Source: Sulfurovum sp.
GTDB taxonomy: Bacteria; Campylobacterota; Campylobacteria; Campylobacterales; Sulfurovaceae
Direction of reading: 5' to 3'
DNA length: 64,000 bases
Assembly: GCA_027068485.1 (NCBI GenBank)
Contig: JAMOSB010000022.1
Span: 1 to 64,000 of the forward strand
Each line of letters starts with the position of its first letter. Within the stretch, counting starts at the first letter, position 1. The translations under genes and the position numbers were made by a program. Positions 55,088 to 62,459 of this stretch are shown here, piece by piece. The notes below the pieces were generated by a model that was not told where the DNA came from, did not search any database, and saw only the letters and a program-made list of their open reading frames with translations.

Positions 55088-55591
55088 TTACTCTGAGAGT
55101 AGTTGCTTTTTTATAAATGGGTCATGGAGATGTTTCCCTTGTAGCATCAGCAGTCGCATCTCTTCATAAGGGATATCTCCTGCTCGTGGATGCTCCAATG
55201 CCCCAAATCCATACCCCATAGGAGAGGGAGCCGTACGGGAGTAGTAGGCTTTATTGACTGCTATCCAGTGATGGGTATCGAGGGTTTGTGTGACAAAGCG
55301 TGCGATTTTGGGCTGGTGTGTTTTGAGCCAAAGTACCGCACACCCTATCTCATCAAAGAAGTAGGTATCCCCCTCTTGGGTGATTAGCTCTACACTATAC
55401 GCCATCGCCTCGATTGGCATATTACACTCCGAACACTGATAGGTGTTGGGAGTGAGCGGGATAATCTTATGCTCAGTGTTGCCTTTGTAGACATAACGCG
55501 CCCCCTCTTCGGTACCAAAGGTGAGCAGGAGAACGACGATAATGGCGATCACCACACCAAAGGTCAAGAGATTTAGCAGTAATTTTTTCAT
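55088..55591 (-). CDS. NosL-family protein with N-terminal membrane anchor
   Basis: The 167-residue protein has an N-terminal membrane helix (about residues 4-25) instead of a lipobox. A NosL domain follows, with metal-site cysteines C53 and C56 in YQCSECNMPI, FFDEIGCAVLWL with a further cysteine, and a C-terminal SPMGYGFGA segment like the one in the lipoprotein at 61998-62459. NosL proteins bind Cu(I) and support nitrous oxide reductase maturation. It is the last gene of the operon and overlaps the preceding membrane-protein gene by 4 bases. Confidence 0.8.
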   Translation of the reverse strand: MKKLLLNLLTFGVVIAIIVVLLLTFGTEEGARYVYKGNTEHKIIPLTPNTYQCSECNMPIEAMAYSVELITQEGDTYFFDEIGCAVLWLKTHQPKIARFVTQTLDTHHWIAVNKAYYSRTAPSPMGYGFGALEHPRAGDIPYEEMRLLMLQGKHLHDPFIKKQLLSE

Positions 55592-56556
55592 AACAAAACT
55601 CCATTTTTGAGATAGTAGAGTGCCACAAAAGCACTACAGAGCAGAGTAAAGAGTCCTAGTAGCAGGGTCGAGAGGTGTGTCAACCTCGAAGATGAATGCC
55701 CCATCAAGTAGCCCAGTAGTGTACTATTGAGCCTCAAAAACACCCCTACCAAGAGTAGCCCCCAGACTAGATACCCCACATAGAAGTAGTGATCTTGAAG
55801 CATACAGAACGGACACTGGTGGGTGGGTAGCTCATAGATGTATGTCCCAAAGAAGTAGACCACCGCGTAGTAGGCAACCGTCGCAAAGAGGAGTGTCGAG
55901 ACCACGCCAAGCAGAAGCGACTCCATCACCCCACTCAAAACCACCAACGCAAAGAGCAGATAGAAGAGCCACAACACCTTAGGGATATCCAACCCCAACG
56001 GCAGACCACTCCCCCCACCCAAAGAGCCAAAGATCACCGAACAACAGCTCACAGGCTGGGTCGTCTCGATATGGGTAAAGTAGAGGATATCGAGTCCAAA
56101 CTCCAGACTCAACAACCCAAAGAGTCCTACAAAAAACCATGACTTAGCCCGTAGATAGGGGTAGTGTTTGGAGTGAAGATCTAGCCAGTTGAGCGTCAAC
56201 CATAGCCCACTAAGCAGAAGGATAATGAGTTTGAGAGTCAAGAGTGGATTGCCGTAGCGATTGGCTTTGATCACCCCTGCACCACACATCGCACCAGGGA
56301 TCAACGAGGCGAGGCTATCGATAGTGTAGACAAAGTAGGGAAGGAGTAGTACCTTGAGCATCATCACAAAGAAGATGATCGTCATCACCAGATAGGAGCG
56401 GTTCTCCAACGCAAACTGCTTGGGGGTAAACGCCTCAAAGTCCCATCCACGCAAGAGACTACCTGTCGCAACCACCGCAACAAGAAGCAATGCATAGAGA
56501 ATCCCCTCACTTAGAAGATAGATAATCACCTCATGGCTTAGTAGTATCTCAGACAT
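55588..56556 (-). CDS. Polytopic membrane protein with paired cysteines, unknown
   Basis: The 322-residue product has about eight membrane helices. Cysteines lie at 91 (GAMCGAG), 171-172 (PVSCCSVIF) and 248/251 (HQCPFCMLQ), the last a CxxC near the membrane face with methionine behind it. These would suit copper or thiol-disulfide chemistry, as in DsbB/VKOR-like proteins, but I see no homology strong enough to name it. It overlaps its neighbours by 1 and 4 bases, between the ABC ATPase and the NosL-family gene. Confidence 0.65.
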   Translation of the reverse strand: MSEILLSHEVIIYLLSEGILYALLLVAVVATGSLLRGWDFEAFTPKQFALENRSYLVMTIIFFVMMLKVLLLPYFVYTIDSLASLIPGAMCGAGVIKANRYGNPLLTLKLIILLLSGLWLTLNWLDLHSKHYPYLRAKSWFFVGLFGLLSLEFGLDILYFTHIETTQPVSCCSVIFGSLGGGSGLPLGLDIPKVLWLFYLLFALVVLSGVMESLLLGVVSTLLFATVAYYAVVYFFGTYIYELPTHQCPFCMLQDHYFYVGYLVWGLLLVGVFLRLNSTLLGYLMGHSSSRLTHLSTLLLGLFTLLCSAFVALYYLKNGVLL

Positions 56557-57230
56557 TAGACAATCTTCCCATCCTCCATCCCAATGACACGATCTACAAA
56601 GTCGAGGGACTCAAAGAGTGGATCATGGGTCGCTACAATAATCGTCTTGCCTTGGGCGTGTAGAGTTTCAAGCATCGCAATAAACTTCAAGGAGTTGGCT
56701 CTATCGAGGTTGGCGGTGGGTTCATCACAGAGGATGAGCTTGGGGTCATGTACCAATGCCCGTGCGATGGCACAGCGTTGTTTCTCTCCCCCTGAGAGGG
56801 CTTTGACCTGCTGAGTCGCCTTGTGTTCGATCGATGCCATCTGCATACTCTTGGATGCCATCTGTTTGAGTGTAGGGTAGGCAACCCCACTAGGGATAAG
56901 TGGGACGATGACATTCTCCTCTACACTCAACGCATCGAGTAGATTGAAGTGCTGAAATATCACCCCTATCGCTTTGGCACGGTAGGCTGAGGCGTGGAGG
57001 TCTGGGAGCTTAGAGATCGGCTCTCCTCCAACAACAATCTTGCCAGAGCTTGGCTTGTCAAGGGCTGCGATGAGGGAGAGCAGGGTTGATTTGCCACTTC
57101 CACTCACGCCACTCAAGACGACCATCTCCCCTGCCCCAACCTCCAGATCAATCGCACGCAACGCCTCAAACGCTTGGGGTCGCCCCTCATCAAAAATCTT
57201 GCTTACCTGCTCTATCTTTACCACTCTCAA
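56556..57230 (-). CDS. ABC transporter ATP-binding protein, LolD/MacB type
   Basis: The 224-residue ATPase has Walker A SGVSGSGKSTLL near residue 39, signature LSGGEKQRCAIARAL, Walker B LILCDEPTANLD and the switch histidine in VATHDP. The type pairs with FtsX-like permeases that work by mechanotransmission rather than import. The permease is the gene just upstream. Confidence 0.9.
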   Translation of the reverse strand: MRVVKIEQVSKIFDEGRPQAFEALRAIDLEVGAGEMVVLSGVSGSGKSTLLSLIAALDKPSSGKIVVGGEPISKLPDLHASAYRAKAIGVIFQHFNLLDALSVEENVIVPLIPSGVAYPTLKQMASKSMQMASIEHKATQQVKALSGGEKQRCAIARALVHDPKLILCDEPTANLDRANSLKFIAMLETLHAQGKTIIVATHDPLFESLDFVDRVIGMEDGKIV

Positions 57231-57240
57231 CTCCTCATCA

Positions 57241-58419
57241 CTACAACATCGCCTCTTTGGGAGGTGTCACGGCTATCTGCCACGCAGGGATCAAGACCGC
57301 CCCCAAAAAAGGGATCGCATAGAGCAGAAAGATCGACCCTAATAATCCAAACTCTATTGTGGGGACTAAGACAACATGGTTAGGCAGATTGGCTCCCCCT
57401 AAAAATATCTCTATCAGTAGGGGAGCATCCAGCACAAACACATACCCATATGCCACAACCACCCCTAGTATAAAGCTCACCACCACCACGCTCAGTGTCT
57501 CATAGAACTTCAGTTTGAGAATATCTTGGATACTCCACCCCACCGCACGCAAGATACCAATCTCGCGTCTCTCGGTTGAGTAGACCATCGCATACCGCTG
57601 ATAGAGTATCAACATAAAAGTCGCAAGGGTGATAAGGTAGAGTACCAAGAAGAGTCCCCCTTTGTAGTTGTAGAGTCTCTCATAGGATTTAATCACCTCT
57701 CGCTTCTCCACCACCCGTACATCATAGAAGAGTAGATGGAGCTTGGAGATGATGGTATCCCACTCCGCATCATTGGGGACATTGAAGGTGATATCTGTCA
57801 CCTCCTCCTCACCTAATCCAAAGATCTCACGAGCCAGTTCAAGAGGGAGTATCACCATATCATTGGCGATTAAGTTGGTCGTAGATGGGAGTGTCTGAGC
57901 GATCTTCACACGCTTAAATGTACCTTTGGGGGTCTTAAAAGAGAAACTATCGTTGTAGTAGTGATCCTCTAAAAACGCCTTGACCCCCTCCCCTACGACC
58001 ATACTAGGTGTCGCAAAGAATGCCTTGAGATCAATCCCTTCAATCAGCTTCTGTAGCATCACACTACTCTGTGTATCGAAGAAGTCCACCCCCACAACGA
58101 GAAAGGACTCCTGTCGTGGACTAAAGAAGTAGCGTCCATAGATACGCGGTGCGACATCTTGTACCCCACTCATCTGAGAGACGGCATCGACCCATGCCAG
58201 AGGGGTCGTGGTAGGCTCACCCGCCTGCATGCGTGTGACACTGAAGTCTGACTCTGCCTGTACACTATTTAGAAGGGTGGTCTGTAGAGACGCAGAGAGA
58301 AACAGTACCGAACTTAGCAGTGCGATAATCATCACGGAGATCAAGACCGCTCCGATATGTTTACTCTTTTGCTTGAAGAGTAGGAGGGTAACGAAGTAGA
58401 GAAAGGGGTTAGTGTGCAT
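57241..58419 (-). CDS. FtsX-like ABC permease (LolC/MacB type)
   Basis: From the ATG at 58419 the protein has 392 residues. One N-terminal membrane helix is followed by a large periplasmic domain (about residues 45-255) and three helices in the C-terminal FtsX-like part containing STERREIGILRAVGWS. It begins inside the end of the small upstream gene. Together with the ATPase it could extract or deliver a periplasmic lipoprotein such as NosL, or move a metal complex. The substrate is unknown. Confidence 0.85.
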   Translation of the reverse strand: MHTNPFLYFVTLLLFKQKSKHIGAVLISVMIIALLSSVLFLSASLQTTLLNSVQAESDFSVTRMQAGEPTTTPLAWVDAVSQMSGVQDVAPRIYGRYFFSPRQESFLVVGVDFFDTQSSVMLQKLIEGIDLKAFFATPSMVVGEGVKAFLEDHYYNDSFSFKTPKGTFKRVKIAQTLPSTTNLIANDMVILPLELAREIFGLGEEEVTDITFNVPNDAEWDTIISKLHLLFYDVRVVEKREVIKSYERLYNYKGGLFLVLYLITLATFMLILYQRYAMVYSTERREIGILRAVGWSIQDILKLKFYETLSVVVVSFILGVVVAYGYVFVLDAPLLIEIFLGGANLPNHVVLVPTIEFGLLGSIFLLYAIPFLGAVLIPAWQIAVTPPKEAML

Positions 58420-58672
58420 AGATAAATCCAACTCTACTAAGAGATTGAAGTTGTGGGTAGGCAGGGTTATTGGGGTTGAGAGCTACGCCTAAACGAGGAG
58501 TGCGGGACTCATAGTAGGCGACACTTAACGCCAGAGAAGAGAAGCCAGTGAGTGCGACGACTGAGTCGATCTGCTCTTGGGTAGTGGGGCGATCATACCC
58601 TAGATAGTCTCCCACTACACACCCCACTGCCACCAAAACTACTACACCCAAGAGGATAAATGACTTCACCAT
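58409..58672 (-). CDS. Small exported or anchored protein of unknown function in the NosL operon
   Basis: The 87-residue product has an N-terminal hydrophobic helix ending VAVGCVVGD, possibly a lipobox-like cysteine at residue 18, and a soluble remainder with no recognised motif. It is 3 bases downstream of a NosL-family gene and overlaps the permease gene, so it is surely part of the operon. Confidence 0.6.
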   Translation of the reverse strand: MVKSFILLGVVVLVAVGCVVGDYLGYDRPTTQEQIDSVVALTGFSSLALSVAYYESRTPRLGVALNPNNPAYPQLQSLSRVGFIYAH

Positions 58673-58675
58673 AGG

Positions 58676-59359
58676 CTACTGCTCTATCCCATCAAGTCGC
58701 ATCACCATCGTCGCATCAATCTGATCAAACGATACAATACGCTTACCGTGATGCTCCGCCATAAAGGATTTGGCCTCTTTGGCACGCTTAAAGGCGATAA
58801 GTTCGCGTCCCATTGGTCCATAGACATCTGCATCTAGTACATAGAACGCCTCTTTGGCAGGGATCTTCTCAAGGGTGTAGTAGTCACTCACCATCATCTC
58901 TGTAATCGCAGTACGGTTGTAGGGGAAATCTCCATCAAAAATATAGTACTTCATCATATCTTTGACCCCATCAAAGTAGTAGTGTTTGTCACCCACGACC
59001 AACATCGCTGCCCACTTGGGATACTGCCCAACAAACATCCCACAGACAGGACACTTCGCATCAGCAGGGACATCAAGTGGGGTGCCTGTTCGCTTCGTCG
59101 TCCCATGCTGAAGATAGAGGGCGATCGCTTGACGCTTGGATCGGGAGAGTGGAGGACACGCACCCGAGTGGCTAATCTCCTCCATCAATGAGATCGTAGA
59201 GCCAGAGGCATGAGGAAGCTTGCTCTTATCACAAAGCATGGTGACGATCCGCTCCCCTTTGGTCGCAAGCTTAGCTAGCTGATCTGCACGCATCTCTCCT
59301 GCACTCAGTAGACCTAGTGCTAACACCACACCCCAAATCACTCTCTTCATCCTCTGCAC
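58676..59359 (-). CDS. NosL-family protein with N-terminal two-cysteine module
   Basis: The 227-residue exported protein has a signal peptide (about residues 1-25). A module of about 50 residues with cysteines 43 and 68, ending LxxxxxQAIALYL, resembles the end of a small cytochrome c but lacks CxxCH. A NosL domain then has C103 and C106 in KCPVCGMFVG, HYYFDGVKDMMKYY, and AKSFMAEHHGKRIVSFDQI. Copper binding is expected from the family. The module recurs at the other end of the next protein (59372-60067). Confidence 0.82.
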   Translation of the reverse strand: MQRMKRVIWGVVLALGLLSAGEMRADQLAKLATKGERIVTMLCDKSKLPHASGSTISLMEEISHSGACPPLSRSKRQAIALYLQHGTTKRTGTPLDVPADAKCPVCGMFVGQYPKWAAMLVVGDKHYYFDGVKDMMKYYIFDGDFPYNRTAITEMMVSDYYTLEKIPAKEAFYVLDADVYGPMGRELIAFKRAKEAKSFMAEHHGKRIVSFDQIDATMVMRLDGIEQ

Positions 59360-59371
59360 CTCTTTGGCTAA

Positions 59372-60067
59372 CTATCGGCGAGAGAGATAGAGTCCAACCG
59401 CTTGCATCTGCTTAGGGTTGAGTCCGCTACAGAGCTTATGGCTCATTACAAAGGCTTTGGCATCGGCCGTCGTCTCAAACTTCTCTTGAGTCGCTTGACA
59501 CTTCTTAGCGTAGAGCATCGCACCCTTTTTTGCCATCATCGCTTGTTTTTTAGCGATCATCTTAGACTCTTTGGCAAAGCCCTGCTTGGCTACTCCATAT
59601 GCCCCCTCAAATCGCATCACATCACCACCATACTGTGTTGCAAAGGCTTTGGCATCGACCTCTTTACCAAAAGCGTACTTACTCACCATACTCATCGTAC
59701 CCTTCTTGCTACTTCCTACAACATAGTACGCCTCTTCTACGGGGATAAACTTCAGCGTAGTGACATCAACCACACGCTTATGCGTTAGCGTTGCACCATG
59801 CTCCAAGTCTGCTACCATACAGTGGAGTGAACAGTATTGCTTCTCTTTGCCATCAAGGGTTGCGACATGATTGGTCTTGTAGAACATCGGAAGCATCATC
59901 CCACACTCAGGACAGAAGGGTTTGGCTTTGCCCTCTTGGAGAAGCGTCGCTTGTGTCATGGGGACACTCTGAAAAAGCTTCATCATCTTTTTGGGGTGAG
60001 CCTCTTGGGCAGTAGTAGAGAGGGTCATCATAGCCAGAGCTATGAGCGTGAGTAGCAATCTTTTCAT
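59372..60067 (-). CDS. NosL-family protein with C-terminal two-cysteine module
   Basis: The 231-residue exported protein has a signal peptide (residues 1-20). A NosL domain follows, with C52 and C55 in FCPECGMMLP and C79/C83 in QYCSLHC, next to methionines that could add copper ligands. A methionine/lysine-rich linker comes next. The C-terminal module (C190, C213) ends QMQAVGLYL and matches the N-terminal module of the 58676-59359 product. AAGGAA lies upstream of the ATG. Confidence 0.82.
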   Translation of the reverse strand: MKRLLLTLIALAMMTLSTTAQEAHPKKMMKLFQSVPMTQATLLQEGKAKPFCPECGMMLPMFYKTNHVATLDGKEKQYCSLHCMVADLEHGATLTHKRVVDVTTLKFIPVEEAYYVVGSSKKGTMSMVSKYAFGKEVDAKAFATQYGGDVMRFEGAYGVAKQGFAKESKMIAKKQAMMAKKGAMLYAKKCQATQEKFETTADAKAFVMSHKLCSGLNPKQMQAVGLYLSRR

Positions 60068-60654: not shown

Positions 60655-61164
60655 TTATATCCTTCCATTTAAAAGTCGTATGAGGGCATCAGACACCTCA
60701 TCAAAGGTGAGTATCCGTTTGCCGTTGTAGTGGGTCATAAAGGCTTGTGCATCTGCGTGTGTCGCAAAGGGGACGAGATCATCTCCCGCAGGTGAGATAG
60801 CACGACTACCATAGACAAAAAAAGCACGCTCTGCATCGATCGCTTTGAGACTCTTATAGTCGGTGACAACAATCTTAGAGAAATCTCTCTCACTCTTCAC
60901 CCCCACATCAAACCACTTCCCTGGACGATGGTAGAACTCAAAGAGTGACTTAGGTGAGGAGAAGTAGACCGTTTTGCCACCACGCACCTCTATCTTGGCG
61001 ACCCATTTGGGATCTTTGTAGAGAGGGATATGACGCACAAGGCAGGTGGTGTTTTTGTCATAAGTAATCAGATACTTGACACTAGGGCTAAAGGGCTTGG
61101 CGACGGGAGTGGACGCAACAGCCCAAAGGCTCAAGAGGGTAAGTGTAACGAGTAGTTTGTTCAT
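60655..61164 (-). CDS. NosL-like exported protein lacking the CxxC motif
   Basis: The 169-residue protein has a signal peptide and the body of a NosL domain: KWVAKIEVRGGKTVYFSSPKSLFEFY, a VTDYKSLKAIDAERAFFVYGS segment and AQAFMTHYNGKRILTFDEV, as in the 58676-59359 product. At the usual metal site only one cysteine remains (C41, in TTCLVRH). It may be a structural partner or bind copper by another set. It follows nosY by 9 bases. Confidence 0.75.
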   Translation of the reverse strand: MNKLLVTLTLLSLWAVASTPVAKPFSPSVKYLITYDKNTTCLVRHIPLYKDPKWVAKIEVRGGKTVYFSSPKSLFEFYHRPGKWFDVGVKSERDFSKIVVTDYKSLKAIDAERAFFVYGSRAISPAGDDLVPFATHADAQAFMTHYNGKRILTFDEVSDALIRLLNGRI

Positions 61165-61173
61165 AGAGTTCCT

Positions 61174-62001
61174 TTAGACTAGATCTTTTTTGGTGAAGAC
61201 ACGATACCCTAAAAAGGCAAACAACACCCCAACTATCACAGGGTAGAGTATCGAAAGCAAGACAAAAACCCCTTGGCTCATCGTGTCGAGTATCGTAAAT
61301 GCCACAGGTCCCATCACCGTAAGCTCAGGATCAAAGAGGCTAATGGCTGCCACACGGAATATCTCCATGGGGTTGAGCATAGCGATAGAGAGGATCAACT
61401 CCTCACTCATACGGTTTTGAAGCATCAAGGAGATGAGCGCAATATCGATAAAAGCCAGAAGAAAGATCCAGACAAAAAAGGAGAGTCCCAATGCCATCTC
61501 AGAGGACTTCACACTCGAAGAGATAAAAAAGGCTATCCCCAAAAATGCGGAACTCATCGCAAAGAGAAGCCCTGTATAGAGGAAAAAGATATTCCACGGG
61601 ATAGATGCTCCCTTAAAGGCTCCATACCCAATCGCAAACACCATCGCCATAAAAACGGGTAAAAATACTGTGATAAAGCGTCCAAAGACCTTACCCCAGT
61701 AGTACTGTTTGAGTGAGATAGGAAAGGAGAGCATATACTCCAAGATATGGCTATCTCTATCCCCCGAAATCGAACGCACCGTTGTCACCAAGATAAAGAT
61801 AGGCAAGATGATAATCGTCACTTGAATATACATCAAAAGCAACCGACTCAATCCCGAAAATCCCATCACCTGCGACTCTGTAATCCCCGCAATAAAAAAG
61901 AGGGCGATTAGCCCACCAAAGACGACCGAGTAGATCAAAAACCAGTTGGCACGAATCGACTCTTTGAGGTCGAGATAGGCGATTAAAAGTAGATTTTTCA
62001 A
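61174..62001 (-). CDS. nosY: NosY-type ABC-2 permease
   Basis: The 275-residue protein has six membrane helices and typical segments GDRDSHILEYMLSFPISLKQYYWGKVFGRF and ILDTMSQGVFVLLSI, a match for the ABC-2 permease of the Nos assembly system. It works with NosF and the periplasmic NosD (not in the window) to deliver sulfur or copper to nitrous oxide reductase. The TTG start overlaps the stop of the lipoprotein gene (TTGA). Confidence 0.85.
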   Translation of the reverse strand: MKNLLLIAYLDLKESIRANWFLIYSVVFGGLIALFFIAGITESQVMGFSGLSRLLLMYIQVTIIILPIFILVTTVRSISGDRDSHILEYMLSFPISLKQYYWGKVFGRFITVFLPVFMAMVFAIGYGAFKGASIPWNIFFLYTGLLFAMSSAFLGIAFFISSSVKSSEMALGLSFFVWIFLLAFIDIALISLMLQNRMSEELILSIAMLNPMEIFRVAAISLFDPELTVMGPVAFTILDTMSQGVFVLLSILYPVIVGVLFAFLGYRVFTKKDLV

Positions 62002-62459
62002 TAGGCTCTCCTGTTGTTTTTTTCTTCAATGATAAAGATCTGTTGGCTCATCTCTTGAAAACTTACCGTATGAGGAAGCTTCTGCTTATGTGCGGAGAAG
62101 CCATACGCCATAGGGGTGAGTGTCCCGCTACTATAGTATGCGTTGCGTGCATCGATCCACTCTCCCGTCTGCACATCCGTGATCCAGATCTTGGCACGAG
62201 ACGCCCACGGTGTCTTCTCATCATCAAACCACAAGATCACACAACCAATATCATCAAACATATAGCTACGCCCTGTATCGATATTGATCACTTGGACGGC
62301 GTGGTGGCGTTCGCTTACGACCATCTTACACCGCATACACATATCTCTATCCCAATGTACCTCTTGAAGGGCTTGGGGGTCACGCTCTTGACACCCACTC
62401 CCCCCAAATATCAAGCCAAGAAGTATCAAAAGATAGCTTACACTAACACGCTTCATCAC
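61998..62459 (-). CDS. nosL: NosL copper-binding lipoprotein
   Basis: The 153-residue protein has a lipobox with cysteine 23 (GGSGCQE), then the copper motif MCMRCKMVV (C41, C44), FDDIGCVILWFDD and NAYYSSGTLTPMAYGFSA, all as in classical NosL. It is the only one of the five here with a standard lipoprotein signal. It overlaps nosF by 17 bases and nosY by 3-4 bases. Confidence 0.9.
   Translation of the reverse strand: MMKRVSVSYLLILLGLIFGGSGCQERDPQALQEVHWDRDMCMRCKMVVSERHHAVQVINIDTGRSYMFDDIGCVILWFDDEKTPWASRAKIWITDVQTGEWIDARNAYYSSGTLTPMAYGFSAHKQKLPHTVSFQEMSQQIFIIEEKNNRRAY

Follow-up and report, generated by a model that had tools for sequence, protein, structure and literature searches.

The window analyzed here is a stretch of 64,000 nucleotides (positions 1 to 64,000 of contig JAMOSB010000022.1) from Sulfurovum sp., and it carries two adjacent genes for NosL proteins, here named A and B (Table 1). 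Both open reading frames were found at the positions given by an earlier sequence-only reading of this DNA, and both lie on the minus strand, which that reading did not mention; gene B is upstream of gene A, with a gap of 12 bases. The start listed for gene A is a GTG, and for this reason the ATG at 59350, three codons in, appears to be the likelier start. Signal peptides were recognized by eye in both proteins. Their NosL domains belong to PF05573 according to the Pfam profile (cut-off 24), with 101.9 bits over residues 95-219 of A and 50.0 bits over residues 50-154 of B, and that of A also matches solved NosL structures in the PDB. The lipobox anchor is a trait of known NosL proteins, not part of the profile that defines PF05573; as judged by eye, neither A nor B has a Cys in its signal region that could serve as lipobox cysteine, and such a cysteine is present in the single NosL encoded at 61998-62459. 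Both proteins have the copper motif CXXCXM (CPVCGM in A and CPECGM in B), a feature of clade II NosL (PMC6530538).

Outside the NosL domains, the two proteins share a two-cysteine module whose motif, first noticed in the sequence-only reading, is exact in both. In A it consists of G35-x7-C43, followed 25 residues on by C68 and C-x2-L-x5-QAIALYL, and in B of G182-x7-C190, followed 23 residues on by C213 and C-x2-L-x5-QAVGLYL. The distance between the cysteines is thus the sole difference in spacing, and CxxCH is missing from both sequences, as had been stated.

Table 1. Features of the NosL gene pair and of the genes that follow it in the window.
Feature	Position	Strand	Remarks
Gene B: signal peptide, N-type NosL, module	59372..60067	-	231 aa
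Gene B NosL domain, CPECGM and CSLHC motifs	59606..59920	-	
Gene B module, residues 182-228	59384..59524	-	
Cys190 codon, first invariant cysteine of module B	59498..59500	-	
Cys213 codon, second invariant cysteine of module B	59429..59431	-	
Gene A: Sec-type signal peptide, module, C-type NosL	58676..59359	-	227 aa from GTG
Gene A module, residues 35-83	59111..59257	-	
Cys43 codon, first invariant cysteine of module A	59231..59233	-	probable position of cytochrome c heme cysteine 1
Cys68 codon, second invariant cysteine of module A	59156..59158	-	
Gene A NosL domain, CPVCGM motif	58703..59077	-	Pfam; PDB NosL 7osf, E 3.5e-6
Small conserved protein, 87 aa, no known family	58409..58672	-	37/58 loci
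FtsX/MacB-type ABC permease	57241..58431	-	53/58 loci
LolD/FtsE-type ABC ATPase	56556..57230	-	53/58 loci
Membrane protein, 322 aa, invariant C91, C171-C172, C248-P-F-C251	55588..56556	-	52/58 loci
Membrane-anchored NosL-like protein, CSECNM	55088..55591	-	50/58 loci; weak NosL kinship

Occurrence and arrangement of the module

Profiles of 47 A-type and 34 B-type modules were compared with hhalign and aligned over 59 columns with a probability of 97.5 (E 8.4e-12), a likeness far above chance, from which the two are judged to be one homologous module. The alignments of the module (A1 to A4, with 47, 34, 77 and 61 rows) are hand-picked subsets. The contig scan covered the best 80 loci of 449 matches, so that the sample leans to close relatives; window copies (L001-L003, L092) and a chance match (L175) were dropped, and some loci are duplicated (e.g., L009/L087). 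The sequence-only reading had proposed a profile search for other occurrences, and this gave 198 proteins over all loci: 77 with the module ahead of a C-type NosL, 71 with the module after an N-type NosL, 48 with the fused order NosL(N)-module-NosL(C), one with two modules in the same chain (NosL-module-module-NosL, locus L160) and the chance match, whose exclusion leaves 197 proteins. All 197 contain NosL, none of them shows a free-standing or otherwise fused module, and the position of the module is fixed, i.e., after the N-type NosL and/or ahead of the C-type NosL. A complete C-type NosL without the module was found only in L078, in the edge-cut L067 and in the module-less paralog (60655-61164 and its kin); the second gene of L078 has in fact a shortened module with both cysteines, which was missed by the HMM.

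Both cysteines are kept in 198 of 198 module copies, and the glycine in 197. Exactly two cysteines are present in 187 of the 189 distinct copies. The third residue after the first cysteine is never a Cys (0/189), and therefore no module has a CxxCH, which rules out plain heme cytochromes as the identity of the pair. A Met lies within about three columns of the second cysteine in only one distinct module, any His is found in 88, and no His or Met tied to the cysteine pair is conserved among the 189. Searching NCBIfam for the module returned stray matches only. The sequence-only reading knew of no description of such a module, and searches of the open-access literature found none either; the accessible portions of PMC7558416, PMC4999995, PMC6242987, PMC4794192 and PMC6530538 do not describe it, and the one in PMC6242987 that names a "NosL family protein" (SMUL_3232) gives no domain detail.

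The module does stand at opposite ends of the two window proteins, as reported in the sequence-only reading, but the domain shuffling deduced from this was not upheld. In Sulfurimonadaceae, Helicobacteraceae-named MAGs, Arcobacteraceae and others, NosL(N)-module-NosL(C) is a single chain of ~340-400 residues; Sulfurovum and Nitratifractor, with few exceptions, show the split arrangement of the window. Since these relatives have the module in the middle of the chain, the opposite ends are those of two halves of one arrangement. Trees of the module with C-type NosL (120 rows) and of N-type NosL with the module (114 rows), from which the cut B gene of L017 was excluded, strongly cluster the fused and split forms. 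In a C-type NosL tree rooted with the 18-row paralog, and with the split rows thinned to 38, fused forms are basal, with the main split clade nested inside; 34 of the 38 split rows, together with two fused ones, form a 99* clade within a 96* clade of otherwise fused forms, and the starred branches force two changes. At least two splits are therefore favored by the trees but were not retained as a firm claim, because a single split clade is still compatible with the 120-row tree in the AU test (p 0.113). Shuffling, in which a free-standing domain would have joined the opposite ends of two NosL genes, explains the two window genes taken by themselves, yet it is very improbable given that the 197 proteins (chance match L175 excluded) include no free-standing or otherwise fused module, that the module always follows an N-type and/or precedes a C-type NosL, and that NosL-module-NosL is widespread, with split forms nested among fused ones in the rooted tree. 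The opposite direction of change, in which adjacent B and A genes were joined into the fused form through recombination or read-through, would agree with the two modules kept at L160 and with an AU test that leaves the number of changes open; however, fused forms are basal in the rooted C-type NosL tree and occur in more family groups than split forms, and this direction is considered improbable.

Another example of division involves six fused genes in which the metal motifs of the N-terminal NosL have been lost. In five of the six (L079, L083, L107/L177, L111 and L114) the gene adjoins an intact gene for N-type NosL plus module; no such neighbor was found for the remaining one (L170), whose genome gave one match. 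In genome G395, which has no nosZ match, a B gene, a fused gene of this degenerate kind and the genes for FtsX, the ATPase and the membrane protein are found together. These degenerate genes were rejected as ancestors of the window genes, since in the N-domain tree a 99* branch separates them from all B genes; they are better read as parallel cases of the same division of labor.

Neighboring genes and relation to nosZ

The cassette following the pair was counted in those loci whose downstream sequence extends for at least 4.5 kb, 58 in all; the other 22 of the 80 were too short. The frequencies of its four larger components (53, 53, 52 and 50 of 58; Table 1) indicate that this transporter is the usual partner of the NosL pair, and the cassette is lacking in L044, L077, L080, L081 and L085. 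At L077 (6963-8582), from Poseidonibacter, the fused gene is on its own and follows a gene that, by eye, resembles one for a superoxide reductase. The NosL-like protein of the cassette has no Pfam match over the cut-off. In the 322-aa membrane protein, C91 is conserved in 63 of 63 sequences and C171-C172 and C248-P-F-C251 in 61 of 61; no family was found for it in Pfam (31 members), NCBIfam or the PDB, and the idea that CPFC marks a DsbB/VKOR-like thiol oxidase was dropped, no such family having been matched in these databases.

Genes for nitrous oxide reduction are also present in this genome. The window holds, with the cassette, the genes that we take to be nosF-nosL-nosY from gene order and kin. 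A NosL paralog at 60655-61164 (minus strand) has CPVCGM replaced (CLVRH), yet it is conserved beside nosY in nosZ-linked loci. The nosZ of this genome lies on another contig, in a group of genes (L176: 9056-16707) with what look like two cytochrome genes and with others that are presumably nosB-, D-, G- and H-like; all but nosZ are named from the gene order. Beyond the end of the window (64000), a cytochrome with two near-identical CxxCH repeats of ~125 residues (L004:3702-4457, minus strand) adjoins a molybdopterin oxidoreductase gene. At another locus, cut by the contig end (L036:2-1792, minus strand), a polyferredoxin-like membrane protein (Fer4_5) has a C-terminal N-type NosL, and the sequence of this fusion suggests an electron supply to NosL.

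In a survey of 397 Campylobacterota genomes, a module match was obtained in 125, from 34 of 68 genera (one of them, G390, being a chance match), and a nosZ match in 127. With the chance match counted, 70 genomes have both, 55 the module alone, 57 nosZ alone and 215 neither, an association with an odds ratio of 4.8 (p 1.4e-11), with genomes as the unit and no correction for kinship. A part for N2O reductase only was therefore rejected as the role of the module: a nosZ match is lacking in 55 of the 125 genomes with the module, which is thus not dedicated to this enzyme, and 57 of the 127 nosZ genomes have no module match. Contigs of MAGs labelled Candidatus Krumholzibacteriia (L074, L076) also carry the fused gene with those for FtsX, the ATPase and the membrane protein, owing to either a binning error or transfer.

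Fold of the module and its cysteine pair

The sequence-only reading had compared the end of the module with the last helix of a class I cytochrome c and proposed structure prediction and superposition as a check. Three helices were predicted in an A-led model (pLDDT 84) from the 77-row alignment, which combines A, B and fused rows, and the same three in a B model (pLDDT 93) from B-type rows only. In VIA-align, rows 1-10 were cytochromes c or cytochrome c subunits for both models, with Z from 5.3 to 4.2 for A and from 5.7 to 4.5 for B, all of them below 8; for the B model, the rmsd was 2.2-3.0 over 53-58 of 60 residues. The ranking points to a cytochrome c-like fold, but the best Z values, only 5.3 and 5.7, are suggestive and no proof: ribosomal S17e gave 3.6 and 4.5 with the A and B models, respectively, Z below 13 is common for helical bundles, and Foldseek returned no match with E < 1 for either model. 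Aligned with a profile of 46 Campylobacterota cytochrome c domains, the module scored 19.3, the maximum after shuffling being 14.3, and none of 200 column shuffles reached the module-cytochrome score with A3, A1 or the B-only A4. In the register of this alignment, the G-x7-C of the module falls on the first heme cysteine and the last helices of the two domains coincide, and one profile alignment places the second cysteine on the Met of the cytochrome MP motif. By absolute measures the relation to cytochromes c is not significant: the raw scores of unrelated decoys are near those of the module with cytochromes (18.6 vs 19.7 and 17.3 vs 17.8), the hhalign probability is at most 20%, and the B-only profile aligned over 15 columns. 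In Pfam there is no cytochrome family among the matches listed (25 of the 33 families matched by 77 modules), and no match of the module to a cytochrome was obtained in a PDB profile search.

The resemblance to a heme-less class I cytochrome c holds in the model rankings and in the profile register, and we consider it probable that the module descends from a class I cytochrome c and has degenerated, with loss of the heme. Alternatively, it might be an unrelated three-helix domain with a structural disulfide, similar to cytochromes by convergence on a common helical arrangement. The structural scores are within the range of such arrangements and the module has no sequence-family match, but convergence would have to explain why cytochromes c occupy the first ten rows for two models, one of them from B-type rows alone, and why both the G-x7-C register and the last-helix pattern coincide with those of cytochromes c, with a score that 0 of 200 shuffles reach for each of three profiles; it is a serious but unlikely explanation. 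As for the cysteines, the only bridge residues given by DSSP in the B model are 19 and 42, i.e., the two cysteines, and in the A model there is no bridge at them. The B-model bridge, the constant number of two cysteines and the lack of other conserved ligands favor, with somewhat better than even chances, two cysteines side by side forming a structural disulfide. They might instead be a working site, with disulfide/dithiol cycling or Cu(I) held between the thiolates, that relays copper or electrons between the NosL domains. Such a site would suit the invariance of both cysteines in a module where nearly everything else varies save one glycine, the five invariant cysteines of the cassette membrane protein, and a CKCSPCKCNPCKC linker, similar to a copper-thiolate tail, between module and C-type NosL in the fused protein of L148 (985-2175, minus strand); moreover, NosL itself binds Cu(I) by thiolate (Bennett 2019, PMC6530538). 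However, no conserved His or Met accompanies the pair, the B-model bridge suits a structural disulfide, and the fused genes at L077, L080, L081 and L085 have no cassette, all of which makes a working site rather doubtful. In its broadest form this proposal is a heme-stripped cytochrome c whose heme-gripping positions are now a thiol/disulfide or Cu(I) relay between copper chaperones, in use throughout the phylum Campylobacterota and serving copper enzymes other than N2O reductase as well; it is tentative and unlikely, and if true an electron carrier would have turned into a metal- or redox-gating joint.

Proposed role and comparison with known systems

The reading that we prefer, with a probability of about 55%, is that of a heme-free degenerate cytochrome c domain, pinned by its cysteines, that joins two NosL domains into one copper-handling unit. 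The module would be a periplasmic domain of ~50-60 residues and three helices, derived from a cytochrome c, with its first cysteine at the first heme-attachment position, the second near that of the axial methionine, and a disulfide between these adjoining cysteines holding the heme-less domain together. It would connect two copper(I)-binding NosL domains in the order NosL(N)-module-NosL(C), a unit made in the lineage of the window as two proteins with a copy of the module in each. Since each split protein keeps the module, it probably also lets the halves pair or dock on the same partner; N-type NosL genes without the module are found in five complete split loci, and hence a pairing role cannot require both copies. 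The unit would usually work with the LolD/FtsX-type ABC transporter, the cysteine-bearing membrane protein and further NosL-like proteins, and would supply copper to more than nitrous oxide reductase. The tether or docking role and the copper traffic are both conjectural; the two-headed NosL of this phylum often occurs without nosZ, and copper (or another metal) may thus go elsewhere. Known NosL proteins are single small lipoproteins that serve one enzyme, and here NosL would be two-headed, with its own joint domain. This joint is a candidate heme protein with the fold kept and the cofactor replaced by a cysteine pair, which, if true, would offer a clear example of cofactor loss, in a unit that some lineages have split into two genes and of which degenerate copies seem to be caught in the act elsewhere.

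Compared with known systems, the proteins resemble NosL (PF05573; Pseudomonas NosL in NosDFYL, PDB 7osf/7og7) in the NosL domain, the clade II-type CXXCXM and export, and in the window the gene lies behind nosF-nosL-nosY. In contrast to the single lipoprotein, two NosL types here flank a new domain and have no lipobox, and they mostly accompany another ABC cassette, with nosZ often absent. In the models and alignments, the module resembles class I cytochromes c (c6, SorU) in the order of three helices, a G-x7-C ending helix 1 and a last-helix pattern ending in YL; unlike them, it lacks CxxCH and the axial Met, is ~30 residues shorter, and has two invariant cysteines where they have heme. Finally, a cytochrome c domain on a copper protein is found in the same genomes, at the C-terminus of Campylobacterota NosZ (L005). 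That domain, unlike the module, is longer, is of the heme type and keeps the heme motif GCSGCH.
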